In this document: one piece after another, positions 4,400 through 46,719 of the stretch | Position numbering within the stretch: the first letter of the stretch is position 1 | How the letters are laid out: each line of letters begins with the position of its first letter | Assembly (NCBI GenBank): GCA_963978895.1 | Contig: OZ022238.1 | Coordinates: forward strand, 45,886,358 to 45,950,357 | Source: Erpobdella octoculata | Taxonomy: Eukaryota; Annelida; Clitellata; Hirudinida; Erpobdellidae | Direction of reading: 5' to 3' | DNA: 64,000 nucleotides | Made by a program: the position numbers and the translations under genes | The notes under the pieces: generated by a model | Database searches by the model: none | Seen by the model: only the letters and a program-made list of their open reading frames with translations | What the model was told of the DNA's origin: nothing

Positions 4400-4745
4400 A
4401 TTAAAGATATTACAAAACTAACATTTAGGTCGTATTTTGTTGACCAGCTGATTGACCGACTCCATGCTTGTTTCCTCAAAAGGAAAGATAGTTTAGCACT
4501 GTATGTGTCTTAAAACTTCCCTTTTCAATGTTTTCTTTAATCTTCTTCCAATATACAGTGGCTCCGAAGCTCGTTCGACCGTGGGGCCACTTTAAAAAAT
4601 TCTTTTTCAAATTTTTCAACGTTCAACTGCAAATGAACATTGATAAATTATTTAGGTTAACCTAAGATAATAATTTATTTGTATGAATTACTGCAAATAA
4701 ATATTTGTATTTATTTATTTAAATAAATGAATAAATAAATAAAAA
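4400..4745 (+). repeat. Dispersed repeat family, copy 2
   Basis: Second copy of the family described at 1196-1560. The core GTTGACCAGCTGATTGA is at about 4438-4455, and the AACTGCAAATGAACATTGATAAATTATTTA block is diverged. It ends in a short TTTA/AAATAAATGAAT tract, the unexpanded counterpart of the long arrays beside the other two copies. Confidence 0.6.
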
Positions 4746-5505: not shown

Positions 5506-6470
5506 TTTTCTAGTCGCTTTTCTCAAAATAATTTTCCTTTGTCTTAAATTTTTTGAGCTCAATTATGTTTTTAATTTTTAATTAATCAACGAAAAATTAT
5601 TCATTTAATTTCAGTTTCTAAATGTTCACTTTTATTTACGTTTTATTTTATTTGTTATCTTATTATTTTGAACTGATTTATCAATGGTCATTAGTCATTG
5701 TAAGTTATAACAGCCAAATGTCGTAGTAGGTTATATCGTGTTGTATCGAAGACTTGCGATGTTCCGCAATAATAAACTTTATTCTCTTTTCAGGAAACGA
5801 TCATGGCCTGTTAATCGATTGATTGGCACGTTTGCAAAAAACAACTTATATGTTAGTTTTCTTTTGTTTTGTATATTTATTCATTAATAAGTTTCTTAGT
5901 TTTCTCATTTCTTATCCTTAAGATATTTAGATTTTTTTGGAAAGCTTGCGTTATTCATGATACTCTCGTTAGTTTATTGGGGTCTGTAAAAACTTTTTTA
6001 ATGTCCCTTTGAATATAAATGCATCAGTTGAATTATAAAATAAATCAGTTCAAACGTGTTATTAAAAAGATAAATTAATAGCAAAATACATTCTATTTGA
6101 TTGAACTACTTAAGTTAGTTTTAAAATTTACGAAAATAACTAGTTGATATTAACTAAGCACTTAATTCTAATTATTTCAATATTTTGTGTGTGTATTTAT
6201 GCACATGCATGAAGCACATTGAAAACATTATAGTATAGTCGGTGCGGGGTAACCGATCACTGAGCGAGTTCGCGTACAGTTCGCGTTTTAGAGGTTCGCC
6301 TTTTACAGACACCCAATTTTAACAAAAAAATGACTTGCTGGCCATATATACATTCCAATCCAAAAGCTGAGCGTGTCAAACTGTTTTTAAAAGTAGCGAC
6401 GATTCAGCAAAACCTTAGGGGGGGGGGTGAATTTAATTTAATTAATTTAACCTGGAGAATCTTAAAACTT

Positions 6471-8258: not shown

Positions 8259-10801
8259 GATGAGTCTGTGAGTCATATCTATTCAGCAGAGATGTTGCGA
8301 GTACTTATGGTCCGAGTACGAGTACGAGTACGAGTACCATGGTATCGAGTACGAGTACGAGTACGAGTACCATGGTATCAAGTTATCGAGTACGAGTACG
8401 AGTACGAGTACTGAGGTCTCGAGTACAAGTACGAGTACGAGTACAAGACATTTTTAGCGAGTACTTTTCGAGATGAACGGTACGAGTACGAGTACCAAGT
8501 ACTACATCTCTGTATACTAGATTTCAGCAAGTATAAACGAAATATTATCCCAAACAACTGTTTAGTAAACAAGCAAACTTTTTTTAGAGAAGGTGTCGCA
8601 TATGCGAGTACGAGTACGAGTACTTAGTGGAATAACGAGTACGAGTACGAGTACGAGTACTGAGTGGAATAACGAGTACGAGTACGAGTACGAGTACCAA
8701 GGTTTCGAGTACAAGTACGAGTACGAGTACTTGAAAACGGTACTCGAGTTGTACTCGAGTACGAGTACGAGTACCAAGTACTACATCTCTGCTATTCAGT
8801 TGAAAAAACTCCTAGGTATGGTTTGTTTAATTCACATATAGACAACACAAATATATTTATAATAAATGAACTTGTTGTAGTTGCATCAACAAAGAAAAAT
8901 TTGTTGGGATTGATTTTGGAAGAACAAACACTCGTGTAGCCGTCAGTGACAAAAATGGTTTTAAAATCTTAAAAGAAACCCGTTCGCTTGTATATACAAT
9001 AGAGGATGGAGAAATTGTCGATGAAAACACAGAGTGGGACATTTATGGTAGGCCCAAGGAACCTATAGATGGAGTAAAGAAACTTCTGTTTGGTAAATTT
9101 GACGATAAAGATGTCCAAGAATACATGTAAGTGTTTTTTCTCAACATTATACAGTTTCATATTTATTTAGTAAAGCTATAAAAAAGAAAAAAGATTGAAG
9201 AAAAATTCAACAAATTAAACTTAAAATAAATCATTAAATTTTTTAAATTAAGGAAAACCACTGATTTCGAAGTTGTAAAGGGACCCAAAAAACGTCCTTT
9301 AATTAAACTAGAAAAGTTCGACAGACTTTATAAACCATGTGAAGCTGCTGCACCTCTTTTGAGAAATATGAAAAAATCAGCTGGTTGATTTTAATTTTGT
9401 AAAATAATTAAAAATTTGTTTACTTAAAAAGTATAAATTGAATTATTAACAGATTTGTATTTTAATGAAGAAGTTAATAACGCTGTTATAGCTGTTCCAA
9501 CTGGTGCAAATGATTTTGAGGTATTTATTAATAAAAGTTGTGCAAATATTTTTTGGCATTTTCAGTTACACTGTTTCTCAAATAAATAGGAACTTAAAGA
9601 AGCTGGCAGACTTGCTGGATTTGAACGAATTGATGTTGTCAAAGAACCAATTGCTGCTGTACTTGCACTCGATTCATTGGATTCCCAAGAATCTACTTCT
9701 GGTGATAAAGTGTTAGTTGTAATCTGTGCCCTTTTATTAGGAAATTATAAATTTTTGTGATTTTATAGTTGAATGAATTCAAAATTATACTTTTGTGGTT
9801 TCAGGACTGCTGTGTACGATTTTGGTGATGACAAATTTGAGGTCTCAATAATTAAATCCAAAAATGGGCTTATGCATCTTTATTCATACGGTGACTTAAT
9901 GCTTAATGGACGTCTTGTTGACAATGTTCTCATCAATTATTTCAACCAAAAATTAAGAGAACAGGTTAATATACCTAATTTTTAACAAGTAAAACATATA
10001 AACTGGAAAATGTCAAATAAATTCTACGATAAAAACAACACCATTATAATTAATCAGTGGCGTTCTTAGAGTGTCACCCAGTGTTATGATTGGAAAAAAA
10101 CGGCAATAGGCCACCATATCATAAAAATGTTTTTTATTTTGGTGTCACACTATTTCCTAGTGATACCACTGCAATAAATAATATTTCGAATAAATTTCCA
10201 TTGATTATAGACAATACAATCTTTGTTTGATGATACTATTATTAATTTGTATATTTACAGAATGGTGACAATATTGAAAAATCGAGACATGATGATTTTT
10301 TACTTAGAGAACATATAGCTGATGTAAAAATGAAGCTATGCAATGTTACTAAAGTAAATATAAACTTTCAATACTATTGTAATGGTCACTTTGGCCATTT
10401 TGGAATGGAACTAACAAGGAAAGAGTTGGAAAACAGAACTGATGAGTTGTTAAGGAGGACAATTCCTCTGTGTGAAAAAAGCATGAAAAGGTCTGGCATT
10501 AGTAAGAAAGACATTGATGAAGTTTTGTTAGTTGGTGGAATGACAAAAATGCCAAAGGTAATTAAAACTATGTTAATATCAAGCATTTTATAACAACAAT
10601 AGCACATTGATCATGATAACATGAGATGTGAGCTCTAGATTTAATAAAATATGAATATTTATTTTAATTACTATTTGAAAGGTTAAAGAAGTGGTTGAAG
10701 AAATATTTGGAAAAGCCCCGAACAATAAAATTGATTCGCGTGAAATACTTGCTATTGGAGCTGCTGCTGCTGCCAGAAGATCCAAATATTATTTTGAATA
10801 A
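8259..10801 (+). pseudogene. Hsp70-like gene (ATPase domain only), copy 1, interrupted by a hAT element
   Basis: Eight exons with conserved splice sites: 8259-8286 plus 8800-8815 (one exon split by an insertion), 8881-9126, 9253-9383, 9453-9520, 9590-9711, 9805-9964, 10261-10557 and 10682-10801 (stop TAA). They encode an Hsp70 nucleotide-binding domain: phosphate-1 loop VGIDFGRTNTRVAVS, linker region EPIAAVLAL, phosphate-2 loop VYDFGDDKFEVSI, and adenosine loop VLLVGGMTKMPKV followed by EEIFGKAP...AIGAAAAA. The reading frame stops right after this, so there is no substrate-binding domain. The adenosine-loop region is closest in style to DnaK/mitochondrial Hsp70. The canonical phosphate-1 Thr is Arg, and the phosphate-2 GGGT is GDDK, so ATP hydrolysis is doubtful. 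A 505-bp hAT insertion breaks the first recognised exon, so this copy is probably not functional unless that exon is skipped. The true first exon was not found. Confidence 0.82.
8287..8791. mobile_element. hAT-type MITE made largely of GAGTAC repeats
   Basis: A 505-bp insertion absent from the otherwise identical site in unit B (around 28604). It is bounded by inverted ends CAGAGATG...CATCTCTG and by a perfect 8-bp target-site duplication CTATTCAG (8279-8286 and 8792-8799), the hAT signature. Most of the body is tandem GAGTAC (reverse GTACTC). An internal copy of the right end (AGTACTACATCTCTG, 8498-8512) is followed by about 90 bp of non-repetitive sequence, so the element may be a composite of two. 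No transposase is present. Confidence 0.92.
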
Positions 10802-13643: not shown

Positions 13644-13780
13644 TTATGATATCAAGTTTCTTCTGGCAGCAACAGAAGCTCCAATAGCAAGTATATCTTG
13701 TGGATCAAATTTTTGGTTTGGTGCTCGTCCAAATATTTCTTCAACCATATATTTCTGGCTTTGATAATAGAAACCTCAAA
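13644..13780 (-). pseudogene. Hsp70-like terminal-exon remnant in unit A
   Basis: On the minus strand this reads as the last exon of the Hsp70-like gene (MVEEIFGRAPNQKFD, then ILAIGASVAARRN, stop at 13644-13646). Immediately upstream it is joined directly to a piece of a different exon (the FEVSIIK segment), so two exons and their introns are missing. The same fusion is present at 36799-36935, so the deletion is older than the duplication. Confidence 0.8.
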
Positions 13781-14045
13781 TAAAAGTATTTTAAATAAAT
13801 TTATTTTTTATCTTTTCTTGTTTTTATACACGTATTTTAAATTTTCTGAGTTATGCATTGAATAACTTTTATTGTTTGACTTACTAAAACCTGAGTTGCA
13901 ATGCCTCTGCATATCTCTTTGTTTTAAAAAATCATATGTTGTATAAGAAACGCTAAGGAAGTAAAAAAGAAAATAACGCGCACAGGCATATAACGCGCTA
14001 AGGGGTGCGCGGTATGCATAGACTTATATATAAGTCTATGGCGGT

Positions 14046-16651: not shown

Positions 16652-19600
16652 TTATAATATTAAGTTTTTTCTGGCAGCAACAGAAGCTCCAATAGCAAGT
16701 ATTTCTCTTGGATCAAATTTTTGGTTTGGTGCTCGTCCAAATATTTCTTCAACCATATCTTTGACCTTTAAAAAAGTAAATTTTAGTTACAAATATGCTT
16801 TTCTGCAGATTTAAGTTATATCAAAGAAATGCTTATAATAAAGTTCCGCTTGCTAAAAATGTCTTTCTTACTTTGGCACCGTTAATACAAAAAACACTCT
16901 GATATAACTAGATTTTTTGTGGTTATCATAAAAAGAACTTGAATACCTTTGGCATTTTCGTAATTCCACCAACTAACAAAACTTCATCAATGTCCTTCTT
17001 AGTAATTTTGGCTAATTCAGTGGCCTTTTTAATGCTCTCTTCACACAAAAGAATTGTCCTTTTAAGCAAATCATCGACAAGGTTTTCAAATTCTTTTCTT
17101 GTTATCTCCGTTTTAAAATTTTTATAAACACCATCTAAATCTTTTCCCCATGTCTCGAATTCTCTTATTTCAGTATCTTCCGATAATCGGATTTTAATAT
17201 TTTTTACTTTAGCGAGATCCGAGAGTGACTGCAAATTTAGAATTAGAAGCTTTAATTGAAAACATTCATCACCGAATTACTTCAAATTTTCATAAATGAC
17301 ACTAATAATCTAATATTTATTAGGACTAGGTAAAAACTGTTTAACTATTTAACATCAAAATTCTATAACATGAAAATGTTTTCTAAATAAACAATTAATT
17401 AACCTGTAGTCCAAGTTTTTTCTTACAAAGGTCTATTAAGCGATCGTCAAAAGCTTTTCCATTGAGCATCAAGTCACCAGTCGAATAAGCTTCCATAACC
17501 CCATTTTTGGATTTGATAATAGAAACCTCAAATTTTCCTCCACCAAAATCATAAACAGCAATCCTAAAAAACCAAAGTATAATAATTATCTGATGTATCA
17601 AACATTAATAATAATAATAATAACTTGTAACTAACACTCTATCACTAGAAGTAGTTTCATTTGACTCAAGCGCAAGTGCAGCAGCAATTGGTTCTCTGAT
17701 CACATCAATTCGTTCAAATCCAGCAAGTTTGCTAGCTTTTTTTAGTTGCTATTTATTTTAAAAATAATTTAATTTGAATTATTAACATTTTTTATAACAA
17801 AACGTAGATAGTTACCTTATAATCAGAACTATAACTTGGAACAGTGACGACAGCATAATTAACTTTATCTTTAAGATCCTCTTCTGTTGACGAATAAAAT
17901 TGAATTTTATTATATTTTTTATATACAATTTTTTAGTAAAATGTTTAATTACACAACATTAACCAGCTGAATGTTTCATTTTTTTAAAAAGTTGTGCAGC
18001 AATTTCATATGGTTGATATATTCCAATGTCTGGGACTTTGACCATCGGTATATCATTTTTTCCTTCTATGACTTCGAGTTGTCTGGTTTTCCTTTTTTTA
18101 AATGATGGTAAATGTTTAAAATTGTAATAATGTTAAGTTATCGAAAGTTTCTGATGTACCGTAAAACGGGAAGTAATTTTGGCCCAAATTAAATTTTTTG
18201 TTTAAATTGCTTTGACCTTCCATAAAACCGAACAAAAAGGTTTTTCACCCAAACCAACTTCGGGATGTTAATTTTTATTTTGGTACTTCAGGGAGATTTT
18301 GGCCATTGAGAGCCGCATTTGAAAGTATACTATTACAAATTTCTTCGTAATTGTTGTGTGTTGAAATGTGGAAATTTATTGAGTTTTTCCTATAGCGCAA
18401 TTTTTACACAGTTTTATTTAATTTTATTTCTCTGTGTTGTGAAGATATTTTTTTTATAAATTTATAATTTATTTTTCACCACCTTTTAAACAAGTTAAAA
18501 CTTTGAAACTTTTAGCATAGACTTTAGACACCCACCAAAACATTTTTCAATAGTTTTAGAAACAATTTAATCATGATTTAGAATAATTTAAATAATTATT
18601 TTCTAACAAATTCAAAATTATTCACTAGATAGCGCTTACGTCAATTAAATGAACTTTTAAGTAATCATGACTTTGTCAAAAACTTATTAAATAATTGACT
18701 GAAGTATTACTATAAACAATGGTAAAACTATTATTTCATTTAGAGATCGATTTGCATAATGTTAAAATATAAAAGTTTGATTTAAAAATAAAGATTCACG
18801 CTTGGACTTGTTTTACATGCCCCACAGAGAGAAACGATCTACCCGCTAAGTTTTCCGTTAACATGGACTACTAGGCAGTGTTGGATAAAATCATTTTTGA
18901 AAAAATTTGAAATCAAAATCATCAGAAAAAATATGATTTCAAATCAAAATCAATAATTATGAAATGATTTTAAATCAAAACCACTTTTAAAAAGTAATTC
19001 AAATCATGAAATCAAAATCTTTTTTCTTAAATTTATTAATACACGGTTTGGTTTAATTTAACATAGTTTTGTTCATTAAATTACTAGCTCGTCAAATATG
19101 AAAGTTTTTTTGTTTTATAAAACGCTCAGATTATAAATAATTAACGATTTCCTTCTCTACCATTATTAAATGCTTTGGATCAAACCTGGTTCAAGCAAAT
19201 TAAAATTACTAAATTTCATGCATGCATTCGTAAGACATCTTCATTATCTAGCGATGTTTTCTTTTGAACAATAAATCCAACATTGTTTGATGCAATCGGA
19301 TAACCTCTTGCATAAAACCCTTCAAAAACGAAGGAGTTGATAGTACGTCACCCCAGAACAAAGGCAAACACACTACCTACCCCTTTGGTCGGAATGGAAA
19401 GGGTAAATACAATGAATGTGCTGGGAGTCCTGATCGACGGAAAACTCTCATTCCGGGAACACGTTGACTGGATCAACACAAAATGTGCACAGACTTTGTG
19501 TGCTCTAAGAAACTTACGGGCTCACGGGCTGTGTGGCCGGGAGCTCTGGACGGTCACGGAGGCGACACTGATATCCAGGATCACCTACGCCTCTCAATCA

Positions 19601-22600
19601 TGGTGGGGCTTCATTGGTTTGGGAGATCTTCAACGCATCGAGTCGGTCATTAGGAGGGTAACACTCCAGGGTTTCTTGGATCCCGACCGCCCTGATTTTG
19701 TGCACCGCTGCGCCGTGGCGGGTTCAACTCTGTTCAACCAGGTTTTGTCTAACCGCCTTCACATCCTTCACCATCTTGTCCCAGACGTCAAGAAATCAGG
19801 ATATCACCTTCTTCATCGAGCTCACGACAGAGCTATTCCGCATGCAGATTCCATACTCAGAAAAACCTTTATCCATAGATCGTTGAACTCAAAATAACTT
19901 AAACAATGCCGAACGTTATATTACATTTCTGAAAAAGGCAAGTTAGAGATTTTATTTTAAGTCTTTAACTTTAGATTGTCAAAACTCGCATTCATTTTTA
20001 TTTAATTCTTATTTTTATTATTTTATTATTTAAATGTAAACCGCTGTGCGTCATTGTCAGGCTGGATAATAAAGATTTACTTACTTACTTAATAAGCTTA
20101 GGAAAAACGTTTTTGATCTTTAGGACTGACAGTGTACAATTGCATAATAACCTTTACTACATGCAATCTGATAACCTCTTGCATAATAAACTTAAGGAAA
20201 ACGTTTTGGATCTTTAAGACTGATACTGTACAACTTTTATCATACGCCTGCGTGCACTAATTTTAGCAACTGCTTAAGGCTCTGCGGACGCCACGTTATG
20301 CGAAATTGCTAACATACATACATACATACATACATAGGAAATTATAAATGTAGATGTTTTCAATCAACTTCGATCTAATATCACTTAAACGATGAAATGT
20401 AACTATTGTTTATTTATTTATTTTTCTAAAGAGTTTCAACAAGAGGACTATGTTGCTCTTTGCATTATGTTTTGTAAATTGCGTTTTTGTGTAAGCTTCT
20501 CTTTTCTTGGTTGCACGTTTTATGAGAAAACACGCTAATTGCGCTAAAACGTGTTTTCTTTTTAATCCTATTAGATGAGTTTGTAATCTTGACATTTAAG
20601 TAGCGATTAACGGCTGATAAATTACATAATTGAATTGGATAAGAGATTTAGCCAAAACAGAAATGTCAGATTCAGAAAATAATGACGCAATAAATAGGAC
20701 AATTTTTACTCTAGCCGATAAAGGAACCAATAATATTATTATGTTTACGGCGATGTAACACAGAAAAACTAATTTTTAACACTTCTTTTGCTGATTTGTT
20801 GAAAGAAGTAAATTCAGTTGAAACAATGGTGCAAAAAATCAGTATCGTCAATATTCAAACTGGTTAACATAGCAATCGAGATAATTTATAGTCAAGAAGG
20901 AAAAATTAGGCTTTTACAAGAAAGGTTACATGGCCAAAAAATCCAAATAAACATTGTACAAGAAAAACTGGATTATTCCAAGCTCTCAATAAAATTGAAA
21001 AGTGGTACTCCATCATATGCAGTAATTGCCGCAAAATGATTGTTTGTTAATGAAAAACAATAAAGGTGTTATAAAATAAAAAAATCTGACCATAAAAAGG
21101 GATGGAAAAAGATATAGCTGCCGTTGTGAACATTTTAGAAATTCAAGATACCGGATTGGATAATCAAAAAATTAGATCAATGACTGAACATTCTAAAAGA
21201 CTTGAAAAAATCATACCTAATTTTGGGTATATTTCAATTTTCGTAAAATGTAAAAAAAGGTCACTAAGGAATAAACTGTTGGAAGCATGGAAAATACCAA
21301 ATGAGGAGAATTCAAAATTAGTAATGGAACTAAATACATAGTATAACCAAACCTTACAATTGAACAAATAAAAATGTATAGTGAAATGTAACTCATGGAA
21401 ACGCGAAATGGGTTGTCTATGGTCCCATGGACAGCCCAAGAAAATGAAAGGAAGGAGAGATAAAATCAAATCAAGTTCCTCAGTTACAAAAGTAAAACAA
21501 ATTAGTTTTGCCAAAAATTTGTACACCAATATTGATTGCATGACAAATTTCAGGAACTAAAAATACGTGCATCGGCACAAGATCCTGAAGTGGATCTAAT
21601 TGTGTTGACTGAAATTAATCCAAAACAAAGGCAATCAGGGGGGCCAAAAACCTTTCCAGGCCAAAAATGCCTATGTACGACCATAAAAAGTAATCTAAAC
21701 CGCTGGTGTGATCTTGATGAAATTTGGCAACACAGGGGAAAAAGTTAAGAAAGTTTGAACTCCCAAACTCGATCCCCCGGTTTAGAAGGGGCAAAAAACT
21801 TTCCAGGCCATCAAAGGTAATTGTGTAATAAAATTCAAATTTGGTTTACATAACAAGATTTGAAGGTTTCAAACAACTTTTAGTAAATCTATTTTACGTT
21901 TTATAGGCTAAAAGAAGTTAGGAAAGAGTATTTGATCTAGAGGGGGGGGCAACTGAGAGCGAAAGAGTGAGCGAGAAAGCGACAGGGAACGGATAACGAC
22001 CGGTAGCGAGAGCGCAAGCGGGGAAGGAAACGGAAGCGAAAAAGACAAACATTAGAAGAACCATGAGCAACGCCGGGTACCCCGCATATATTAATCTATA
22101 ATTTGAGAACTCAGTTTTTTGCATTTTTTATTATAACTCTATTAAATATTTACCACGCGATTCTAAATACTTGATATGTAAAGCATGCGATAGAAAATTC
22201 TATGTTTTTATTATAAATTTTTTCTTATAAAAAGATTTATAAATTTTTAAAATTCATTAAACTTTTATTGAATTTTTAAATATAGATTGACTTATTTTTA
22301 AACTGGACCAAAGTTTTGCGAAAGGACTTAAATACAAATACTCAAGTACACCTATTGTACTTAAGTACATATGTACTCAAGTACTCGTCATCATTGGACC
22401 AAAAAATCTCCCATTTTATGGTAGTTTCAAATAGATATTAAATTATTAACATTATGTTTTTCAGTATTAACTTACATTAATTCCTGGAAGTCAATATCAC
22501 TGAATTTACGAAACAGTAATTTCTTTATGTCCCATACGCTTTCAGCAACACATCGTTCTTGACACTTATCATATATATCATCTGAATTTATATCCACAAT

Positions 22601-22801
22601 TGAAGAACTTCCTCCTAAAATTGTATGATCTGTATTGTTGCTTACAGCCACACAAGTTTTTGTTGTTCCAAGATCAATCCCAACAGCGGAACTAAAACAG
22701 TAAGTAAACTCGTCATCTTATAATTGTATTCAATTTTACAAAATAATATAAACATACCTTGGTGATTTACAATTTGAGTAGATTAAACTCACAGGTTCAT
22801 C
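16652..22801 (-). CDS. Hsp70-like protein, ATPase domain only, copy 3 (apparently intact)
   Basis: Eight minus-strand exons, all with GT/AG sites and compatible phases: 22801-22758, 22691-22476, 18091-17964, 17883-17816, 17748-17635, 17563-17404, 17228-16947 and 16765-16652 (stop TAA). The product is an Hsp70 nucleotide-binding domain. Phosphate-1 loop VGIDLGTTKTCVAVS is canonical. The phosphate-2 loop VYDFGGGKFEVSI keeps GGG but has Lys for Thr and Glu for Asp. The adenosine loop is VLLVGGITKMPKV. The protein ends about 35 residues later (RAPNQKFDPREILAIGASVAA), so the substrate-binding domain is absent, as in HSPA13-type truncated Hsp70s, though sequence style is nearer DnaK/mitochondrial Hsp70. 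The 4.4 kb intron between exons 2 and 3 is packed with LINE and hAT fragments. The initial exon with the start codon was not identified; an in-frame stop just upstream of 22801 shows that this exon begins at a splice acceptor. Confidence 0.82.
18092..18875. other. Intron sequence of Hsp70 copy 3
   Basis: AT-rich, no coding signal. A diverged copy of the segment at 18690-18760 (TAAAGTATTACTATAAACAATGGTAAAACTATT) recurs at 23015-23060. Confidence 0.45.
18876..19060 (+). mobile_element. hAT-type left end with AAATCAAAATC repeats
   Basis: Starts CAGTGTTGGATAAAATC and continues with repeated AATCAAAATC / ATTTCAAATC motifs, the layout of hAT ends in this window (compare CAGTGATGGGT at 14046). No right end or transposase was recognised, so this is probably a truncated terminus. 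Confidence 0.45.
19325..20095 (+). mobile_element. 5'-truncated LINE with (TTAC)n tail
   Basis: Encodes the end of a non-LTR retrotransposon ORF2 (MNVLGVLIDGKLSFREHVDW, ISRITYASQSWWG, then RKTFIHRSLNSK and stop at about 19897). A roughly 200-bp 3' UTR containing CCGCTGTGCGTCATTGTCAG follows, and a terminal TTACTTACTTACTTA repeat. Two shorter minus-strand copies of the same 3' end are at 40337-40508 and 45768-46150. It sits inside the large intron of Hsp70 copy 3. Confidence 0.85.
20096..20659. other. No gene seen
   Basis: Two diverged copies of GATAACCTCTTGCATAA...GGAAAACGTTTT around 20100-20230 and one at 19297, which the LINE interrupts; a (CATA)n tract at 20311-20336. No coding signal. 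Confidence 0.45.
20660..21640 (+). mobile_element. Degenerate LINE fragment: ORF1-like region and endonuclease start
   Basis: Broken plus-strand frames: a coiled-coil-like stretch (KIRLLQERLHGQKIQINIVQ, about 20905-20965), a second frame with SKRLEKIIPNFGYISIF and KCKKRSLRNKLLEAWKIP (about 21185-21300), and a third (NLYTNIDCM, KFQELKIRA, then DLIVLTEINPKQ, about 21510-21630) like the first motifs of an apurinic-type LINE endonuclease. The order fits ORF1 followed by the start of ORF2. It is cut off by the reversed repeat beginning near 21640. Confidence 0.5.
21640..22100 (-). repeat. (TA)n-CTAG dispersed repeat, diverged reversed copy
   Basis: Reverse complement resembles 6505-6870: a GGGTACCCGGCGTTGCTC start, pyrimidine-rich CTTCCGTTTCC segments, AAATCTATTTTACGTTTTATAGGC, and the GGCCTGGAAAG-like blocks, here in two partial copies (around 21650 and 21800). 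Noncoding. Confidence 0.5.
22101..22475. other. Intron sequence with an AAGTAC-rich segment
   Basis: Positions 22325-22390 contain repeated AAGTAC/TACTCAAGTAC motifs resembling the hAT ends elsewhere in the window; no clear ends. The rest is AT-rich noncoding. Confidence 0.4.
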
Positions 22802-23299
22802 CTAATAAATAATTTAAAACATATCACTGGAAAATTAACTTATAAAAATTGATTACAACAAGAATCTTTTAAATACAAGAATTCTGAAAAGTTATCGATA
22901 AAATTTCTAACGGTTTAGGACGGCTTTACCGTTCACAGACAATAAAATATTTCCTTTATTTATTAAGTTATTCAACGTGCCTTCTAAAATTTCTCATTCA
23001 TCCATTTAACAAAAGGATAACTAAAGTATTACTATAAACAATGGTAAAACTATTTTTGCATTTAAAAATTGATTTGCATAATTTAACAAATAGCCGTTTT
23101 AACCAAAAAATTAATTTCAATTTTCTTCTTAGCTTGTAATTTCATTTCAACTAAAACCTGAAGCTTTATCTTTACTAAATAGCGTGAAATTTAAAGCCTT
23201 TGCACAAACTAAACAGTTAATAAGCTTGTTGAGGCTATAGTATAACAAAAATAGGTTTTGTTTCTCACAGATTTATAATTTAATCGAAATGAAAAAGAA
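22802..23299. other. No gene seen upstream of Hsp70 copy 3
   Basis: Expected to hold the promoter and first exon of the minus-strand Hsp70-like gene, but I cannot recognise either. Confidence 0.35.
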
Positions 23300-23618
23300 A
23301 CAATTTTGTTTAATAAAAAAGACTACAAAACTAACATTTAGGTCATACGTTGTTGACCAGCTGATTGATCGACTCAAAGACCATGCTGGTCTCCTCAAAA
23401 GGAAAGACAGCTTAGTACTGGACAACATAACGATACTTTAAGAAAGGTTGATAATGTTCTTTGTCAATTGAATGTTACGCCTTATAACTGCAAATAACCA
23501 TCGATAAATTATTTACGTTAACCTAATATAATAAATCATTTATATGAATAAATGAAAATGAATACTTGTATTATTTATTTATTTATTCACTCATTAACTT
23601 AATTAATAAACCTAATAG
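23300..23618 (+). repeat. Dispersed repeat family, copy 3
   Basis: Third copy of the GTTGACCAGCTGATTGA family: the core at about 23350, ATGTTACGCCTTATAACTGC, and CATCGATAAATTATTTACG. It runs directly into the tetranucleotide array at 23619. Confidence 0.65.
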
Positions 23619-23620
23619 AA

Positions 23621-23659
<39 letters not shown>

Positions 23660-23660
23660 G

Positions 23661-23731
<71 letters not shown>

Positions 23732-24544
23732 ATGAATGAATGAATGAATGAATGAATGAATGAATGAATGAATGAATGAATGAATGAATGAATGAATGAA
23801 TGAATGAATGAATGAATGAATGAATGAATGAATGAATGAATGAATGAATGAATGAATGAATGAATGAATGAATGAATGAATGAATGAATGAATGAATGAA
23901 TGAATGAATGAATGAATGAATGAATGAATGAATGAATGAATGAATGAATGAATGAATGAATGAATGAATGAATGAATGAATGAATGAATGAATGAATGAA
24001 TGAATGAATGAATGAATGAATGAATGAATGAATGAATGAATGAATGAATGAATGAATGAATGAATGAATGAATGAATGAATGAATGAATGAATGAATGAA
24101 TGAATGAATGAATGAATGAATGAATGAATGAATGAATGAATGAATGAATGAATGAATGAATGAATGAATGAATGAATGAATGAATGAATGAATGAATGAA
24201 TGAATGAATGAATGAATGAATGAATGAATGAATGAATGAATGAATGAATGAATGAATGAATGAATGAATGAATGAATGAATGAATGAATGAATGAATGAA
24301 TGAATGAATGAATGAATGAATGAATGAATGAATGAATGAATGAATGAATGAATGAATGAATGAATGAATGAATGAATGAATGAATGAATGAATGAATGAA
24401 TGAATGAATGAATGAATGAATGAATGAATGAATGAATGAATGAATGAATGAATGAATGAATGAATGAATGAATGAATGAATGAATGAATGAATGAATGAA
24501 TGAATGAATGAATGAATGAATGAATGAATGAATGAATGAATGAA
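23619..24544. repeat. Tetranucleotide arrays (AAAT)n then (GAAT)n
   Basis: (AAAT)n with one substitution (AAGT) from 23619 to 23732, switching abruptly to a perfect (GAAT)n array to 24544 (about 200 units). The minus strand has no stop and yields a spurious His-Ser-Phe-Ile reading frame. Confidence 0.97.
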
Positions 24545-24760
24545 CTATAATTAATAAATTCAAACTAGAATTAATAAATGCAAACTATAATTAATAAATG
24601 CAAACTATAACTAATAAATGCAAACTGTAATTAATAAATGCAAACTATAATTAATAATAGCAAACTGTAATTAATATTAACTAACTATAATTAATATTTG
24701 CTAACTATAATTAATATTTGCTAACTATAAAATAATATTTGCGAACTATAATTAATCATT
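24545..24760. repeat. 20-bp tandem repeat
   Basis: About ten imperfect units of AACTATAATTAATAAATGCA directly adjoining the GAAT array; later units are diverged (AATATTTGCT). Confidence 0.85.
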
Positions 24761-24769
24761 CTTTTATAT

Positions 24770-25430
24770 TTTACCAAATACTTCTCTGCTAAATGGCTTA
24801 ATTCAAATAAGAATTGGTTTGAAGGTGCCAACAAACTTACACGAAGCACAAACAATGCTCTCGAAGCATTCAACAGAGTTATGAAAGATGAAGATTCTTT
24901 GAGAGAAAGAGTTTCATTATCACGATTTACTGTTGGACTGATTGAATGGATTGAAAAATAGTCCCAAAATTATGAATCGAGAATTAAGGAATTCAAAGCT
25001 TTTCCAGAAATTGACTTGGAACTGTGGACTAGCTCTTACCAGTGAGCAAAAATGAAAAAGACCATAAAGCCAAAATCAACTGAGAGTGGAGTTGTGTACA
25101 ACATTGTTGCAAAAGATTTGACAGAAAGCTCTAATGACATTACCAACTGGGAAACTTTTGATGAGTTTAAAATCAATGCTTTTTGTTCTTGGACCACAAT
25201 TTTACCAAAAGATCAAAATGACTGGCTGAACGGAGAATGCAACTGCCCTGCATTCTTCAAAAAAATGTTTTGGAAACACATTGTTGGTTTAGCTATTCGA
25301 CTGAAGCTGGCAGTCCCACCACCTGCAGCATAAAACATCCCAATTGGAATCAAAAGAAAAAGAGGTCGCCCAGCCAAAGCAACAAAAGTACTATTGGTGC
25401 AATAGATTTTGAGGTTTTTTAAACATTTCA
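24770..25430 (+). pseudogene. Mutator-like (MULE) transposase C-terminal remnant
   Basis: Plus-strand frames read FSAKWLNSNKNWFEGANKL, NNALEAFNRVMKDEDSLRER, then a stop, LELWTSSYQ, a second stop, and further on CNCPAFFKKMFWKHIVGLAI and KRKRGRPAKATK. The central NNALE..NR pattern and the terminal C-x-C...K-H SWIM-like zinc finger with a GRP-type AT-hook are typical of MULE transposases. One expected zinc-binding Cys is Trp here. At least two in-frame stops and no catalytic domain: a dead fragment. Confidence 0.65.
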
Positions 25431-25519
25431 ATCTCATACAACAACATACCATGAAATCATTTGCAACAATTTTTAATTTCTTTAAAAAATAAATAGTGAC
25501 CAAAATACAGTATGCAAAA

Positions 25520-25797
25520 ATTAAAGTTATAGTGTGTAAAATTTTTTTATAGTGTGCAAAATATAGTGTGCAAAAACTTTTTTTATAGTGTGCAAAATAT
25601 AGTGTACAAAAATTATTTTTATAGTATGCAAAAATGAATTTTGTAGTGTGCAAAAATTATTTTTATAGTAAGCAAAAATGAATTTTGTAGTGTGCAAAAA
25701 TTATTTTTATAGTTTGCAAAATTGAATTATATAGTTTGCAAAATTGATTTATATAGTTTGCAAAATTGAATTATTTAGTTTGCATTTAATTGTGACC
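25520..25797. repeat. Degenerate tandem repeat (ATAGTGTGCAAAAATTATTTTT)
   Basis: Irregular units of about 22-35 bp containing ATAGTGTGCAAAA or ATAGTTTGCAAAATTGA, running up to the left edge of duplicated unit B. Confidence 0.8.
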
Positions 25798-26759
25798 CTT
25801 TTTCTAGTCGCTTTTCTCAAAATAATTTTCCATTGTCTTAAATTTTTTGAGCTCAATTATGTTTTTAATATTTAATTAATCAACGAAAAATTATTCATTT
25901 AATTTCCGTTTCTAAATGTTCACTTTTATTTACGTTTTATTTCATTTGTTATCTTATTATTTTGAACTGATTTATCAATGGTCATTAGTCGTTGTAAGTT
26001 ATAACAGCCAAATGTCGTAGTAGGTTATATCGTGTTGTATCGAAGACTTGCGATGTTCCGCAATAATAAACTTTATTCTCTTTTCAGGAAACGATTATGG
26101 CCTGTTAATCGATTGATTGGCACGTTTGCAAAAAACAACTTATATGTTAGTTTTCTTTTGTTTTGTATATTTATTCATTAATAAGTTTCTTAGTTTTCTC
26201 ATTTCTTATCGTTAAGATATTTAGATTTTTTTGGAAAGCTTGCGTTATTCATGATACTCTCGTTAGTTTATTGGGGTCTGTAAAAACTTTTTAAATGTCC
26301 CTTTGAATATAAATGCATCAGTTGAATTATAAAATAAATCAGTTCAAACGTGTTATTAAAAAGATAAATTAATAGCAAAATACATTCTATTTGATTGAAC
26401 TACTTAAGTTAGTTTTAAAATTTACGAAAATAACTAGTTGATATTAACTAAGCACTTAATTCTAATTATTTCAATATTTTGTGTGTGTATTTATGCACAT
26501 GCATGAAGCACATTGAAAACATTATAGTATAGTCGGTGCGGGGTAACCGATCACTGAGCGAGTTCGCGTACAGTTTGCGTTTTAGAGGTTCGCCTTTTAC
26601 AGACACCCAATTTTAAGAAAAAAATGACTTGCTGGCCATATATACATTCCAATCCAAAAACTGAGCGTGTCACACTGTTTTTAAAAGTAGCGACGATTCA
26701 GCAAAACCTTAGGGGGGGGGTGAATTTAATTTAAATAATTTAACCTGGAGAATCTTAAA

Positions 26760-26763
<4 letters not shown>

Positions 26764-26824
<61 letters not shown>

Positions 26825-27190
26825 TAGCGGGGTTGCTCGGGGTTTTCAGAGGTTTTTTATCCTTTTTCTCTCTTGCTCCCGTTTCCTTTCCCGCTTGCTC
26901 TTCCGTTTCCGTTCCCGCTCGCGCTCATTTTTTCTTTTTCACTCTTTTAGCCCATAAAACGTAAAATAGATTTGCTAAAAGTTGCTTGAAGCCTTCAAAC
27001 GTTATTACGTAAACAAAATTTGAATTTTATTACGCAATTACCTCCGATGGTCGTACATAGGAACCTTTGGCCTGGAAAGTTAAGAAGGGGAAAAAGTTAA
27101 GAGGGTTTGGAATCCTTCTCCGATCCCCCGGCTCAGGGGGCCAAAATACCTTCCGGGCCAAAAGTGCCTATAAATGATCATTGCATAAGT
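26764..27190 (+). repeat. (TA)n-CTAG dispersed repeat, copy in unit B
   Basis: Same as 6470-6880, with the (TA)n tract expanded to about 60 bp (26764-26823). The remainder is almost identical to unit A. The rest of 25798-28575 is the noncoding counterpart of 5506-8258, including an (ATT)n tract at 27384-27420. Confidence 0.65.
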
Positions 27191-27383
27191 TTTCGAAGCA
27201 CTGTTTACAATTGAGTAGCAGGCATTACTTGCTAATGGACTTTTTAATATTAAGAAGTCCATGACTTGCTTCCAAGTCTTGCATAATGTGACCGATTGCG
27301 CGTTATTACAAATTATTAAGAGATAGATGGCGCGGGAAAGCGACCGGAATCGGGAAAGTGACTCTACCAGAGCTCAGAGGCAC

Positions 27384-27422
<39 letters not shown>

Positions 27423-28575
27423 ACAAAAAGTTTAGTTCCATACACTTGATATTATTATAGTACATTTGTATACAAACGTTGTTTTAACAAAATATTTGTT
27501 TCATTTTTTATTATTGTTAATACAACGTTTTACTCAACTCGTCCAAATAAATCTAACAATCAAAATTTAGACCAATGGTTTTAACCTTTTTTCCCGCGCA
27601 CCTTTTGGATGAACTCAATTTGACCGCAATTTCATACAAAACAAAAATCAAAAAATGTTATTGTCTTGTTTCAAGTTTTTTGCTCAATATATATTTTTTA
27701 TTTTTCACCAAAGAACAAAAAGCCAATCTTGCACAAGTAGGTAGTAACTCAAAATGACGAATGCCAACAAACGTTTAGCTCAAGCTGGATAGCTATCTTG
27801 AAAAAATGTGAGACTTTTAACTTCTGGCAATTCGATAAGGAGCTTGGTAAGAAGCAAGGAGGATTGGTTTGACCTTGATAGGCCGAAATCTTAGTTAAAC
27901 TAAAATTGCTGTACCGTCACACCAAACTCTTTTCTGCTCAAGAACGTTAATCGATCGGTTTCAAATTGTCATTTGACAGGACTTTGACACACAAAAAACA
28001 CTTGGGTCGTTGTGTGTCGTTTAAGGACGTCATTTCAGCAAAATCTAGGGGGGAACTTGCTCTCATGACTCCCAATTTTCGAAAACCCCTTTCCTCCAAC
28101 AAGAACCCTTGCTAAAATTGAAGATTTAAATGTATTTCTAATTACTTTTAATAAAAAATTAAAAATGCATAAAATAGTTTTCATATTCAAAAGTTTTATT
28201 TTTCGCACTCCTCAAAATTAGAACAACCTCCCATCGGTTAAGAACCCCTTTTTAAGAACATTTTTCGACAAGTTAAAGCTTTGAAACTTTTAATATAGCT
28301 CTAAAAAGTTAAAACTTTGAAACTTTTAATATAGCTCTAAACACAAGGACAATGCAATATTCTACCAATGACGTCATTTGTGGAGACAGGGTTGCCTCCC
28401 AAATACGAAGTTTTAGAAAAGTTTTGTAATGGGGAAGGGGGCGGGGAGCGGTTTCTTTCTAACTTTGTCTCTTCTTATGAAAATGTTAAAACTTTTATTT
28501 TTACTTTTTGATTTTTATAATTATATATATAAAACAAAAATATAATTAAACTATTTTGGAATGATTTTTTATCAG

Positions 28576-30619
28576 GATGAGTCTGTGAGTCATATCTATT
28601 CAGTTGAAAAAACTCCTAGGTATGGTTTGTTTAATTCACATATAGACAACACAAATATATTTATAATAAATGAACTTGTTGTAGTTGCATCAACAAAGAA
28701 AAATTTGTTGGGATTGATTTTGGAAGAACAAACACTCGTGTAGCCGTCAGTGACAAAAATGGTTTTAAAATCTTAAAAGAAACCCGTTCGCTTGTATATA
28801 CAATAGAGGATGGAGAAATTGTCGATGAAAACACAGAGTGGGACATTTATGGTAGGCCCAAGGAACCTATAGATGGAGTAAAGAAACTTCTGTTTGGTAA
28901 ATTTGACGATAAAGATGTCCAAGAATACATGTAAGTGTTTTTTCTCAACATTATACAGTTTCATATTTATTTAGTAAAGCTATAAAAAAGAAAAAAGATT
29001 GAAGAAAAATTCAACAAATTAAACTTAAAATAAATCATTAAATTTTTTAAATTAAGGAAAACCACTGATTTCGAAGTTGTAAAGGGACCCAAAAAACGTC
29101 CTTTAATTAAACTAGAAAAGTTCGACAGACTTTATAAACCATGTGAAGCTGCTGCACCTCTTTTGAGAAATATGAAAAAATCAGCTGGTTGATTTTAATT
29201 TTGTAAAATAATTAAAAATTTGTTTACATAAAAAGTATAAATTGAATTATTAACAGATTTGTATTTTAATGAAGAAGTTAATAACGCTGTTATAGCTGTT
29301 CCAACTGGTGCAAATGATTTTGAGGTATTTATTAATAAAAGTTGTGCAAATATTTTTTGGCATTTTCAGTTACACTGTTTCTCAAATAAATAGGAACTTA
29401 AAGAAGCTGGCAGACTTGCTGGATTTGAACGAATTGATGTTGTCAAAGAACCAATTGCTGCTGTACTTGCACTCGATTCATTGGATTCCCAAGAATCTAC
29501 TTCTGGTGATAAAGTGTTAGTTGTAATCTGTGCCATTTTATTAGGAAATTATAAATTTTTGTGATTTTTATAGTTGAATGAATTCAGAATTATACTTTTG
29601 TGGTTTCAGGACTGCTGTGTACGATTTTGGTGATGACAAATTTGAGGTTTCCATAATTAAATCCAAAAATGGACGTATGCATCTTTATTCATACGGTGAC
29701 TTAATGCTTAATGGACGTCTTGTTGACAATGTTCTCATCAATTATTTCAACCAAAAATTAAGAGAACAGGTTAATATACCTAATTTTTAACAAGTAAAAC
29801 ATACAAACTGGAAAGTGTAAATTAACTTAATTATAATAAATCCGTGGCGTCACTAATTCTGGTGTCACCTAGTGTTAGGATTGAAAAAAAAACAGTGGGC
29901 AACCAAATCATGGTAATGTTTTTTATTTTGGTGTCACACTATGTGAGTGTGTCACTCGGTGCAGACAGTACCTTCTAGTGATAACACTGCAATAAATAAT
30001 AATTCAAATAAATTTTTGATTGATTTTAGACATTACAATATTTGTATGATAATATTTTTATTTATTTGTATATTTACAGACTGGTGACAATATTGAAAAA
30101 TCGAGACATAATGATTTTTTACTTAGAGATCATATAGCTGATACAAAAATGGAACTATGCAATGTTACTAAAGTAAATATACACTTTCAATACCAATGTA
30201 ATGGTCAATATAACCATTTTAAAATGGAACTAACAAGGAAAGAGTTGGAAAACAGAACTGATGAGTTGTTAAGGAGGACAATTCCTCTGTGTGAAAAAAG
30301 CATGAAAAGGTCTGGCATTAGTAAGAAAGACATTGATGAAGTTTTGTTAGTTGGTGGAATGACAAAAATGCCAAAGGTAATTAAAACTATGTTAATATCA
30401 AGCATTTTATAACAACAATAGCACATTGATCATGACACCATGAGATGTGAGCTCTAAATTTAATAAATATGAATATTTATTTTAATTACTATTTGAAAGG
30501 TTAAAGAAGTGGTTGAAGAAATATTTGGAAAAGCCCCGAACAATAAAATTGATTCGCGTGAAATACTTGCTATTGGAGCTGCTGCTGCTGCCAGAAGATC
30601 CAAATATTATTTTGAATAA
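28576..30619 (+). CDS. Hsp70-like protein, ATPase domain only, copy 2 (apparently intact)
   Basis: Eight exons with conserved GT/AG sites and phases: 28576-28619, 28685-28930, 29057-29187, 29257-29324, 29394-29515, 29610-29769, 30080-30376 and 30500-30619 (stop TAA), giving about 395 codons without a frameshift. The domain layout is as in copy 1: phosphate-1 VGIDFGRTNTRVAVS, EPIAAVLAL, phosphate-2 VYDFGDDKFEVSI, adenosine loop VLLVGGMTKMPKV, ending at AIGAAAAARRSKYYFE. There is no substrate-binding domain. The Thr-to-Arg change in loop 1 and the loss of two Gly in loop 2 suggest weak or absent ATP hydrolysis; it may be a pseudo-ATPase. An ATG at 28561, in frame, could serve as a start, but the paralogue at 22801 has a stop there and a clear acceptor, so a separate upstream first exon is more likely. 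Confidence 0.82.
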
Positions 30620-30980: not shown

Positions 30981-32872
30981 CAGTGGTCATTCCGACTCGC
31001 AGCTGTTTAATTTAGAACATTCATGAAATGTATGAATCCCATAAAAAACAATTGATAGAGTCCTTTAAGGATGTTCTATGGATGTCCGCGACAGCTGATA
31101 TTTGGTCAGCCCACAAGAGAGCATTTATGGGTATCACGTTGCACTATGTGTGCTCACGAACATTGCAGATGAAGTTTTGATTTGTCGTCGATTAAAAGGG
31201 TCTCACACAGCTGAATCTATTGCAAAGATGTTAAATGACACTTTTGATGAATTTCAAATCACCAAACAAATTCTAAACATTGTCACAGACAATGCAGCTA
31301 ATTTTGTTAAGGCATTTTCATTGGTGGCTGACAAAAACTCTATAGATGATGAAACTGAAGCGGACGAGCCTGTAAATGATATTTATGAAAAAGATGAAGA
31401 AATAAAAGGTGAAGGTATAGCAGATTTTATAGAAAGTGAGCATGATAATGATAATTCTGATGATGTGCTTCTTTTACCTCCTCATAAGCGCTGTGGTAAT
31501 CATACATTAAATCTCGTGGCGAGTGTTGATGCATTGAGAGCTAGAGATAACTTGGAGTACAAACGACTTTATGATAGATCAATGGCAAAAGTTGTATCTT
31601 TATCAAACTCCATTCATCGCAGTGTAAAAAATGCTGAGGTTGTGAAAGACATTACAGGTTCAACATTTATAAAGCCAAATGTTACAAGATGGTGCTCAGA
31701 ATTTTATTCCGTTGAAAGGGTTGTTAATATAGGTTTTGAAAAGGTTTGTGATTGTCAGAAGAAATTAGAACAAGCTACATTTAAAGAGATTGAGTTTGAA
31801 TTTTTGAAATCATTTCTTCCGATTATGAAACCAATAGTCACTGCAATGGATATCTTCCAAAGCGAGAAGTCATATATTGGCCACATAATTCCGACCATCA
31901 TTGGAATACAAAAAAAATTACATTCCTGTTCAGAAAAAACCATCAAACCTCTTATACAAGCACTATCTCGGGGTATAGAGAAACGATTTGGTCCTGTTTT
32001 AGAAAATGAAGAGTATCTGCTAGCAACAACGATAATTCCCCAATTCAAATTGAATTTTTTGTCCGATGAGCAAAAAAAATATTTGATTAAAGAAAAATTA
32101 TTGGCTTACATAAAAGAGATGAATCAAGAGCTTGAAAAATCAGGTTTATTTAACTTGTATTTAATTGCAAATGTTAAAAGGTTTTTTTTGGTTAACAATT
32201 AACAATACACAGCATTATTGTTTAATTATTGTTTATTAATTATTGTTTTTATAACTATCTTTGCAGGTTGTAAATCTAGAAGCTCTACCTCAAAAACAAT
32301 CACCTCTGTTGACAATGATCAGTGCAGTGAAAATGACGATTTGTACGACTATATGGATACCATACCAAACTCCTTTGACAATGTATTGGCTGAACAGCTT
32401 AATGATTATTTATCAAACCCGTCCAAGAACATCCAAAGTCTCTTCCATTATCCAGATGTTTGTGCAGCATTTATAAAGCTCAATTCAACCTTGCCAAGTT
32501 CAGCAGCAGTTGAAAGACTTTTTAGTGTAGCAGGACAAATTTTATCTGACAGATGAAGTAAATTGTCTGATAACCATATCGATATGATGATTTTTTAAGA
32601 GATCATCTTAGATATTCTGTAAATGCTTTTGATAGTATCATTTTGTAAATAATTGTGTAAATAAAAATGTAAATAATTATATTCTGTTCTTGGAAATTAC
32701 ATTTGTTTAAAATTTTAATGTTAAAAAGTAGTTAACTACTAGGAAGTAGTTAAGTAGGTAGTTAATAACTACTGCTTTTAAAAGTAGTTAGGAAATAGTT
32801 ACTAACTACTTTTTTTGTGAGTAGTTAAATAAAGTAGTTAACTACTTTTAAAATAGTTAAAAACCATCACTG
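30981..32872 (+). mobile_element. hAT element with decayed transposase
   Basis: An insertion relative to unit A (empty site at about 11160). Ends are CAGTGGTCATT...AACCATCACTG; the flanks share CAGACCA, with the left 8-bp duplication apparently shortened. The transposase frame (31026-32580) has a DIWSAHKRAFMGITLHYV region, a frameshift near 31130-31160, NIVTDNAANFVKAF, a CGNHTLNLVASVDAL catalytic-domain stretch, a gap at 32203-32265, and the C-terminal hAT dimerisation region SLFHYPDVCAAFIKLNSTLP, AAVERLFSVAG with a stop at 32554-32556 inside it. The N-terminal BED finger is missing. The right end has TAGTTAACTACT-type palindromic repeats. Non-autonomous. Confidence 0.9.
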
Positions 32873-36798: not shown

Positions 36799-36935
36799 TT
36801 ATGATATCAAGTTTCTTCTGGCAGCAACAGAAGCTCCAATAGCAAGTATTTCTTGTGGATCAAATTTTTGGTTTGGTGCTCGTCCAAATATTTCTTCAAC
36901 CATATATTTCTGGCTTTGATAATAGAAACCTCAAA
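36799..36935 (-). pseudogene. Hsp70-like terminal-exon remnant in unit B
   Basis: Same structure as 13644-13780: last exon (MVEEIFGRAPNQKFD..., stop at 36799-36801) fused to a short piece of the FEVSIIK exon. No other exons of this copy remain nearby. Confidence 0.8.
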
Positions 36936-41313: not shown

Positions 41314-41592
41314 TTATAATATTAAGTTTTTTCTGGCAGCAACAGGAGCTCCAATAGCAAGTATTTTTTCTGGATCAAATTTTTGGTTTGGTGCTCGTCC
41401 AAATATTTCTTCAACCATATCTTTGACCTGGTAAAAATTTATATTACTGAACTTGTCTCAATACAAGCTAACTATTGGTACAAAATTTATCTGATTTTGA
41501 TACCTGGTTTTGTCAAATACTGTTGAATAGTTTAGTGAGTTTAGTTCTGTTGTCGTTTGTTGCCACTCCTGTAAGTTGTACTACATACTGTG

Positions 41593-42351: not shown

Positions 42352-42352
42352 A

Positions 42353-46150: not shown

Positions 46151-46719
46151 CGCCAAAGAAATGCTTATAACAAAGTTCCGCTTGCTAAAAATTTCTTTCT
46201 TACTTTGGCACCATTAATACAAAAAACACTCTGATATAACTAGATTTTTTGTGGTTATCATAAAAAGAGCTTGAATATTGAATACCTTTGGCATTTTCGT
46301 AATTCCACCAACTAACAAAACTTCATCAATGTCCTTCTTAGTAATTTTGGCTAATTCAGTGGCCTTTTTAATGCTCTCTTCACACAAAAAAATTGTCCTT
46401 TTAAGCAAATCATCGACAAGGTTTTCAAATTCTTTTCTTGTTATCTCCGTTTTAAAATTTTTATAAACACCATCTAAATCTTTTCCCCATGTCTCGAAAT
46501 CTCTTATTTCAGTATCTTCCGATAATCGGATTTTAATATTTTCTACTTTAGCGAGATCCGAGAATGACTGCAAATTTAGAATTAGAAGCTTTAATTGAAA
46601 ACATTCCTCATCCAATTACTTTAAATTTTCATAAATGACACTAATAATCTAATATTTATTAGGACTAGGTAAAAACTGTTTAACTATTTAACATCAAAAT
46701 TCTATAACATGAAAATGTT

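Follow-up and report, generated by a model that had tools for sequence, protein, structure and literature searches.

A large family of truncated mitochondrial Hsp70 genes in Erpobdella octoculata, reduced to the ATPase domain and predicted to hydrolyse ATP poorly

A 64,000-nucleotide stretch of the genome of the annelid Erpobdella octoculata (assembly GCA_963978895.1, contig OZ022238.1, here C1, positions 45,886,358–45,950,357, forward strand; "the window") carries two intact genes, A and B, whose products end with the nucleotide-binding (ATPase) domain of Hsp70. Judged by intron positions, similarity scores and a tree, both belong to a family that is a truncated duplicate of the animal's own mitochondrial Hsp70 gene (mtHsp70, of the mortalin/HSPA9 type), the linker, the substrate-binding domain and the lid having been lost. 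Our favoured explanation, to which we give roughly even prospects, is that the family members are mitochondria-targeted pseudo-ATPase domains that arose by partial duplication of mtHsp70 and would act as non-catalytic partner-binding modules. The genome scanned comprises 386 Mb in 94 contigs, with C1 contributing 52.9 Mb.

Structure of genes A and B

Exons were located by tblastn and a purpose-written spliced aligner, and the joined reading frames were then checked directly. Gene A (minus strand, 23428–16652, 405 aa) and gene B (plus strand, 26053–30619, 426 aa) have nine exons each, exons 2–9 occupying 22801–16652 in A and 28576–30619 in B. Every intron is of the GT-AG type and the joined frames are open, which bears out an earlier note, made from the letters of the window, that had described two intact, intron-rich genes here. 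It had also read the proteins as ATPase domain only, and the Pfam HSP70 match indeed covers model positions 1–372 (A) and 2–372 (B) of 599 (E 1.7e-69 and 2.9e-71), the proteins ending directly past the last ATPase-domain helix. The pair is not convergent, as supposed there; the genes lie head-to-head (divergent), with 2.6 kb between their start codons. The first exon, which the note had left to be found, has been identified in both genes (A, 23428–23336, minus; B, 26053–26145, plus).

Gene A, minus strand:
23336..23428, exon 1: presequence of 31 codons, predicted to target mitochondria; GTTAGT donor, phase 0
22758..22801, exon 2: spliced model, frame checked
22476..22691, exon 3: GIDLGTT and K71; shortened subdomain IB
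17964..18091, exon 4: spliced model, frame checked
17816..17883, exon 5: spliced model, frame checked
17636..17748, exon 6: carries E175
17404..17563, exon 7: DFGGGKFE loop
16947..17228, exon 8: subdomain IIB and beginning of the last ATPase segment
16652..16765, exon 9: with stop; 3' of the family-specific intron between MPK and VK

Gene B, plus strand:
26053..26145, exon 1: 31-codon presequence; seven Lys/Arg, no Asp/Glu
28576..28619, exon 2: spliced model, frame checked
28685..28930, exon 3: GIDFGRT, i.e. T13R; K71 retained
29057..29187, exon 4: spliced model, frame checked
29257..29324, exon 5: F150 and R155 equivalents altered
29394..29515, exon 6: carries E175
29610..29769, exon 7: DFGDDKFE loop
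30080..30376, exon 8: hypervariable IIB patch in the first half (aa 257–305 of the exon 2–9 protein)
30500..30619, exon 9: with stop

Descent from mitochondrial Hsp70

The full-length mtHsp70 gene of the same genome (contig C4, locus L018, 666 aa) begins with a 31-codon presequence exon in phase 0, followed by a short exon 2 in phase 2. All seven comparable introns are common to this gene and the family, with the same phase and in the corresponding place; exon 2 and the beginning of exon 3 differ in length between the two. The mtHsp70 gene has an intron directly after AIGAAIQ, where family members add a handful of codons (ARKNLIL or ARRSKYYFE) before the stop. We infer that a partial duplication kept exons 1–8 and that the following intron became the new 3' end. 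An extra intron, between MPK and VK, is family-specific and absent from mtHsp70, and because it is common to the family, a single duplication event seems to lie at its origin. Six diverged loci on C4 near mtHsp70 (L019–L024, at 0.33–0.45 and 1.03 Mb), modelled roughly and excluded from rate estimates, carry this intron in 6/6 models, which fits a start of the family by local duplication.

Similarity points the same way. Gene A scores 248 bits against the own mtHsp70 and 160 against the own cytosolic Hsp70, gene B 241 and 132. Among solved structures, mitochondrial Stress-70 comes nearest (2.3e-53), followed by DnaK (from 2e-47) and cytosolic or ER (endoplasmic reticulum) Hsp70 (from 1.2e-45). 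In a tree of ATPase domains, a branch with 100/100 support parts the family and the own mtHsp70 from 11 other mtHsp70s, one DnaK and the own cytosolic Hsp70; eight reference mtHsp70s (Xenia, Montipora and Acropora among them) were lost through trimming, and W_46k, L016, L014r (the second gene of L014, cut by the retrieved stretch) and L011 were left out. The best protein-database match of the own mtHsp70 is from Xenia.

Exon places and phases agree among the comparable copies, exons 2 and 3 being read as one in L013 and L015. The copies thus form a real gene family, as the earlier note had held, and an origin as retrocopies was rejected on account of the introns common to them. One intronless open frame of 498 aa does occur on C1 (L044, C1:48824200-48826300). 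It resembles mtHsp70 across the ATPase domain (37% identity to the own mtHsp70), has loop 2 altered to CEFGYRAF, and is apparently an independent mtHsp70 retrocopy whose frame has remained open.

The ATP site

The ATP site was aligned in 21 members, namely the 20 C1 loci found open and the second, split B copy of the window; residue numbers here and in the patch comparison are those of Hsc70. D10, K71, E175, D199 and G201 are retained in 21/21, and T13 in 17/21. In all 21, T204 is replaced by K and D206 by E, Q or R, and the equivalents of F150 and R155, which we take to be the J-domain/linker motif, are altered (in L006, a gap replaces R155). G202D together with G203D occurs in ten of the 21, which form one clade, the GDDK branch; the same two changes are seen in four models that are incomplete, odd or frameshifted (L031, L034, L037, L038). 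The intact set of ATPase-site residues (D10, T13, K71, E175, D199, GGGT, D206) is not found in any of the 21 aligned members, nor are a linker and a substrate-binding domain, the proteins stopping after the ATPase domain.

A passage of PMC12406271 on DnaK has the phosphates bound by the backbone amides of G197, G198 and T199, with T11 and K70 sensing the gamma phosphate; the T199A mutant shows lower ATPase activity and unaffected allostery. As T204K and the loss of D206 are found in every aligned member, weak hydrolysis is expected, so that all family members would hydrolyse ATP poorly. The GDDK branch probably neither hydrolyses ATP nor cycles, because two acidic residues sit where backbone amides cradle the phosphates. 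The earlier note had envisaged two lineages, one in which a damaged phosphate loop is fixed and another keeping GGG, and this agrees with the 10/21 distribution and with the conservation of the exon concerned (see below). Thr13Arg, which it gave as a trait of the plus-strand lineage, is confined to 4/21 members (L028, L029 and the window's two B copies). Its minus-strand gene does keep GIDLGTT and GGG, but it is not clearly "more active", since T204K and the lack of D206 apply there too.

Size and spread of the family

At least 55 loci with an exon 8 match were found on C1, of which 54 cluster in the 2.2 Mb around the window, with at least nine more on C4 and at least two on C2. These are rough lower bounds, counted by hand from the matches listed and including fragments; a genome-wide count had been proposed in the earlier note, and the family proves larger than described there. 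A further 27 C1 loci were retrieved which, with A and B, gave 29 for examination, and 20 of these are open over exons 2–9 (9/12, 9/15 and the 2/2 of the window). Among the other nine, L034 and L038 are frameshifted, L040 is cut by the retrieved stretch and the remainder gave partial or odd models; the split second B copy of the window is not counted among the 29. In a neutral simulation with substitutions only, 0/400 runs stayed open at 0.1 substitutions per site.

A substrate-binding domain spliced on from further exons, which would have spoken against the earlier interpretation, was not found on C1: a general HSP70 profile scan, in which 73 of 620 first-look candidates were scored on a best-candidate basis and which was not aimed at this domain, gave no match past Pfam position 378. 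Canonical Hsp70 genes do yield substrate-domain matches in the same scan. Four canonical Hsp70 matches form a cluster at C3:35083045-35112179. A comparison with a protein database (about 8000 candidates scored per query) returned only DnaK/mtHsp70-like proteins among the best 120 of 1466 and 120 of 1454 matches. Below 500 aa, the second of these sets of 120 contains two proteins, P0313 (418 aa, no name) and P0333 (marked partial), both 32–33% identical. With no family member among these listed matches, the family looks lineage-restricted or unannotated elsewhere. The literature searched yielded no description of an mtHsp70 family limited to the ATPase domain.

On C1 at 47.01–47.20 Mb, family genes are arrayed in tandem, in units of ~32–37 kb with one plus-strand and one minus-strand gene each; the six plus and five minus copies have identical scores.

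A variable patch on a constrained domain

Among the paralog pairs listed (dS <0.9), whole-gene dN/dS is mostly 0.42–0.91 (extremes 0.18 and 1.09). The earlier note had named dN/dS near 1 in all copies as evidence against its reading, and the values are mostly below 1. The codon alignment was made without W_46k, L016, L014r, L011, L007, L031, L034, L037, L038, L040 and L042. Within it, changes in nine recent GDDK copies are distributed very unevenly: a patch of 49 codons has 79 nonsynonymous (N) and 13 synonymous (S) changes (ratio 1.37), against 46 N and 43 S outside it (ratio 0.29, p 1e-8; Fisher p 9e-7 for patch versus rest). The patch corresponds to Hsc70 248–294, with the strongest window at 277–289. 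It also differs at more sites than introns do (71/582 versus 89/3103, p 1e-18, in four non-overlapping pairs, skipping intron pairs that differ by >150 bases; single-pair p 0.03, 1e-5, 1e-16 and 0.15). Pairwise distances in the patch and elsewhere (means 0.13 and 0.023) are uncorrelated (rho -0.03), which indicates that the backbone has been homogenised or is young and that the patch has a history of its own.

At the other extreme stands exon 7 with the GDDK loop, the most conserved exon of the GDDK clade (7 N versus 18 S). On these counts, the loop is maintained by purifying selection. In the A-type pair L039/L041, an excess of divergence occurs in exons 3–4, mainly in what we take, from assumed subdomain borders, to be subdomain IB. 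For subdomain IIB, PMC2940730 describes a surface of helix 8/9 and sheet E that is contacted by all four exchange factors examined. By residue correspondence, the patch is at this exchange-factor surface, and selection seems to retain the folded domain and, at that site, a face that changes.

The presequence exon

Exon 1 was found by comparing the upstream frames of paralogs, which revealed 31 conserved codons with a GTTAGT-type donor in phase 0. A profile built from five copies matches 12 places, one partially, and the six clear matches outside the profile-building set score 3e-21 to 2.5e-10. In the 10 copies listed, exon 1 starts with Met and has 3–7 Lys/Arg, without an acidic residue in its first 25 positions (10/10). 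Its resemblance to the presequence of the own mtHsp70 was equalled by 12 of 2000 shuffles. The assignment rests on conservation among distant copies, on the right phase and on the match to the mtHsp70 gene, and not on composition; mitochondrial import of the family proteins is predicted from it.

An in-frame ATG just 5' of exon 2 in gene B was considered as an alternative start and rejected as a general one, because a YAG acceptor directly precedes exon 2 in 23 of the 24 members listed and because in A-type members this position holds a stop codon or lacks a Met. L006 has its acceptor three bases earlier than the other members. For the recent B clade, a start at this ATG is possible.

Proposed role and alternative explanations

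As mitochondria-targeted pseudo-ATPase modules, the proteins would enter mitochondria via the predicted presequence and fold as Hsp70 nucleotide-binding domains. They would not run the usual chaperone cycle, which appears excluded because there is no substrate domain and no linker and because F150 and R155 are changed. The modules could then serve as decoys, titrators or adaptors that use subdomains IB and IIB to bind partners of mtHsp70 or foreign ligands. If this is true, nature would have separated the functions of mtHsp70 in a large, coding-constrained side lineage that retains the targeting tag and the ATPase fold without the chaperone half. Such a lineage would offer a way to test what a lone Hsp70 ATPase domain does in mitochondria, whether pseudo-ATPase domains are regulators, and why the exchange-factor face must change.

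Several results weigh against such a role. The genome search for partners gave one GrpE and one zf-DNL (Hep/Zim17) match, so no co-expansion of these partners is seen, and a changing foreign or mitochondrial partner would fit the patch better. The N/S ratio of the patch is by itself not above neutral (p 0.21), the nine GDDK copies compared contain the broken B copy of the window, and the pair L032/L033 has no significant excess in the patch. In the pair L012/L035, synonymous divergence in the patch is raised as well, which indicates that gene conversion contributes. As to import, the composition of exon 1 is common in the AT-rich window, where 64 of 396 ATG frames pass the same filter. Exon 1 was not found in the 2.7–3.3 kb retrieved upstream of L006, L012, L014 and L017, and for L028–L038 the retrieved sequence mostly covers 0.1–0.2 kb upstream, and within it no presequence is seen for most GDDK copies. 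Finally, as D10, K71, E175 and D199 are kept in 21/21 members, those with GGG, at least, may still bind or hydrolyse nucleotide to some extent.

This last point leads to another explanation, in which the proteins are slow but working regulators: GGG members would retain ATP binding and turnover and behave as free nucleotide-binding domains, engaging GrpE or Hep-like partners for instance, and GDDK would be a derived branch. Besides the retained residues, with T13 in 17/21 and G201 in all, the DnaK mutant T199A is in its favour, as it reduces ATPase activity and not allostery (PMC12406271, in the passage cited above). It has to contend with T204K, the loss of D206 and the changes at F150/R155 in every aligned member, with the missing linker and with the single GrpE and Hep matches, and we consider it possible, though it will probably not hold. 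Unlikely, in our opinion, is that we are looking at a decaying cluster of non-functional partial mtHsp70 duplicates, spread by segmental duplication under relaxed constraint. The high whole-gene dN/dS of the pairs listed, six broken copies or pieces inside the window and the 9/29 C1 loci that are not cleanly open (L040 being cut by the retrieved stretch) are what such decay would produce. However, 20/29 loci are open despite many pairs at dS 0.4–0.9, when none of the 400 neutral runs stayed open at a distance of 0.1; the N/S ratio outside the patch is 0.29, exon 7 of the GDDK clade is conserved, and splice sites are conserved among copies.

Uncollapsed haplotypes or repeats might have swollen the copy number in the assembly. 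L032 and L033 differ only by 2 nonsynonymous changes, and the 11 copies near 47.0–47.2 Mb score identically; most pairs listed are nevertheless at dS 0.05–0.9, the copies occupy distinct places on one 52.9-Mb contig and there are several old clades. We regard an artefact as very improbable for the family as a whole, and only the youngest copies could be of this kind. Hardly any credence is left for membership in the Stch/HSPA13 kind, an ER-type, ATPase-only Hsp70. Its domain content is that of the family; by scores and tree the family is nearest to mtHsp70 among the references compared (mtHsp70s, DnaK, cytosolic and ER Hsp70), and its introns and presequence exon are of the mtHsp70 type. On the strength of the mtHsp70 proximity within these references and of the shared introns, HSPA13 membership was dropped.

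Comparison with known systems

With mtHsp70 (mortalin, HSPA9, Hsc70-5; kin of DnaK) the family has the ATPase domain, the presequence exon and seven introns in common; it differs in the absence of linker, substrate-binding domain and lid, in the extra intron, and in T204K, the lost D206 and the changed J-domain/linker motif. HSPA13/Stch is an ATPase-only Hsp70 of the ER/microsomes that is not known to derive from mtHsp70; it likewise consists of the nucleotide-binding domain only, whereas the present family is mtHsp70-derived and large. HSPA12, a distant branch of Hsp70, has expanded in bivalves, a lineage-specific growth of Hsp70-like ATPase domains in invertebrates like the one described here, with the difference that our family is close to mtHsp70. 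PMC10687569 gives Stch as the earliest known truncated Hsp70. It describes plant Hsp70T as variable, truncated copies of all four plant forms, the mitochondrial one included, which are defined by a missing C-terminal motif, the T1 lineage having deletions of the lid or the C-terminal domain. Hsp70T differs from our family in not having lost the whole substrate-binding domain, and it is found in plants. PMC8423806 surveyed 125 members of the Hsp70 family, taken from animals and yeast, and found a single mitochondrial lineage.

A more distant parallel is an analogy between unrelated proteins. Restorer-of-fertility PPR genes of plants are mitochondria-targeted, clustered and expanding, and have a fast-evolving contact surface. 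By hypothesis, the present genes could be a conflict-driven mitochondrial pseudo-chaperone family, the animal counterpart of such restorer-type clusters. Gene conversion and purifying selection would then keep the ATPase fold constant, while the IIB face (IB in the other branch) would diversify so as to recognise, or to block, partners that keep changing, be they mitochondrial or foreign. We consider this speculative and rather unlikely.

Other features of the window and genome

The earlier note had mentioned damaged copies, which were seen at 8.3–10.8 kb, at 13.65–13.75 kb, at 36.8–36.9 kb, and at 41.3 plus 46.3–46.6 kb. Beyond these, there are two orphan exon 1 copies (1309–1232 and 4500–4423, minus strand).

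5759..5851, plus: second B-type copy, exon 1, profile match
8279..10801, plus: second B-type copy, exons 2–9; an insert interrupts exon 2, other exons open
4423..4500, minus: orphan A-type exon 1, matched part without start codon
1232..1309, minus: orphan A-type exon 1, profile match
13650..13754, minus: orphan A-type exon 9, tblastn match, frame checked
36805..36909, minus: orphan A-type exon 9, within a 1.7-kb duplicate of 12247–13954
41317..41430, minus: A-type exon 9 of a broken copy, spliced aligner
46283..46627, minus: A-type exon 8 of a broken copy, spliced aligner

The insert in exon 2 of the second B-type copy is ~505 bp long (~8287–8791), is flanked by an 8-bp direct repeat and contains two repeats of ~200 bp that are 80% alike. 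Very long, near-perfect simple repeats occur at 1788–3945 and 23618–24544 (ATAAATGA x270 and GAAT x232), both near A-type exon 1 copies. Long open frames of transposable elements lie at 41590–45407, 61290–63311, 31102–32202 and 38585–39382; the elements comprise a CR1/L2-like reverse transcriptase, a Penelope-like element, and hAT-like and Harbinger-like transposases.

Contig C94 (L026, L027) is the mitochondrial genome, of 19,123 bp, 11.5 kb of which were read. One strand carries nad4L-nad4, nad1-nad3-nad2-cox1-cox2 and cox3-tRNA-Gln-nad6-cob; gene blocks like these are listed as conserved in annelids in PMC2667193. A cnidarian origin of the DNA, considered in view of the Xenia match, was rejected on the evidence of these blocks; in a tree of full-length mtHsp70s the own row was long, drawn from a model with incorrect first exons, and did not place the host. 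In the nad4 frame, AGA reads as Ser when judged by eye.

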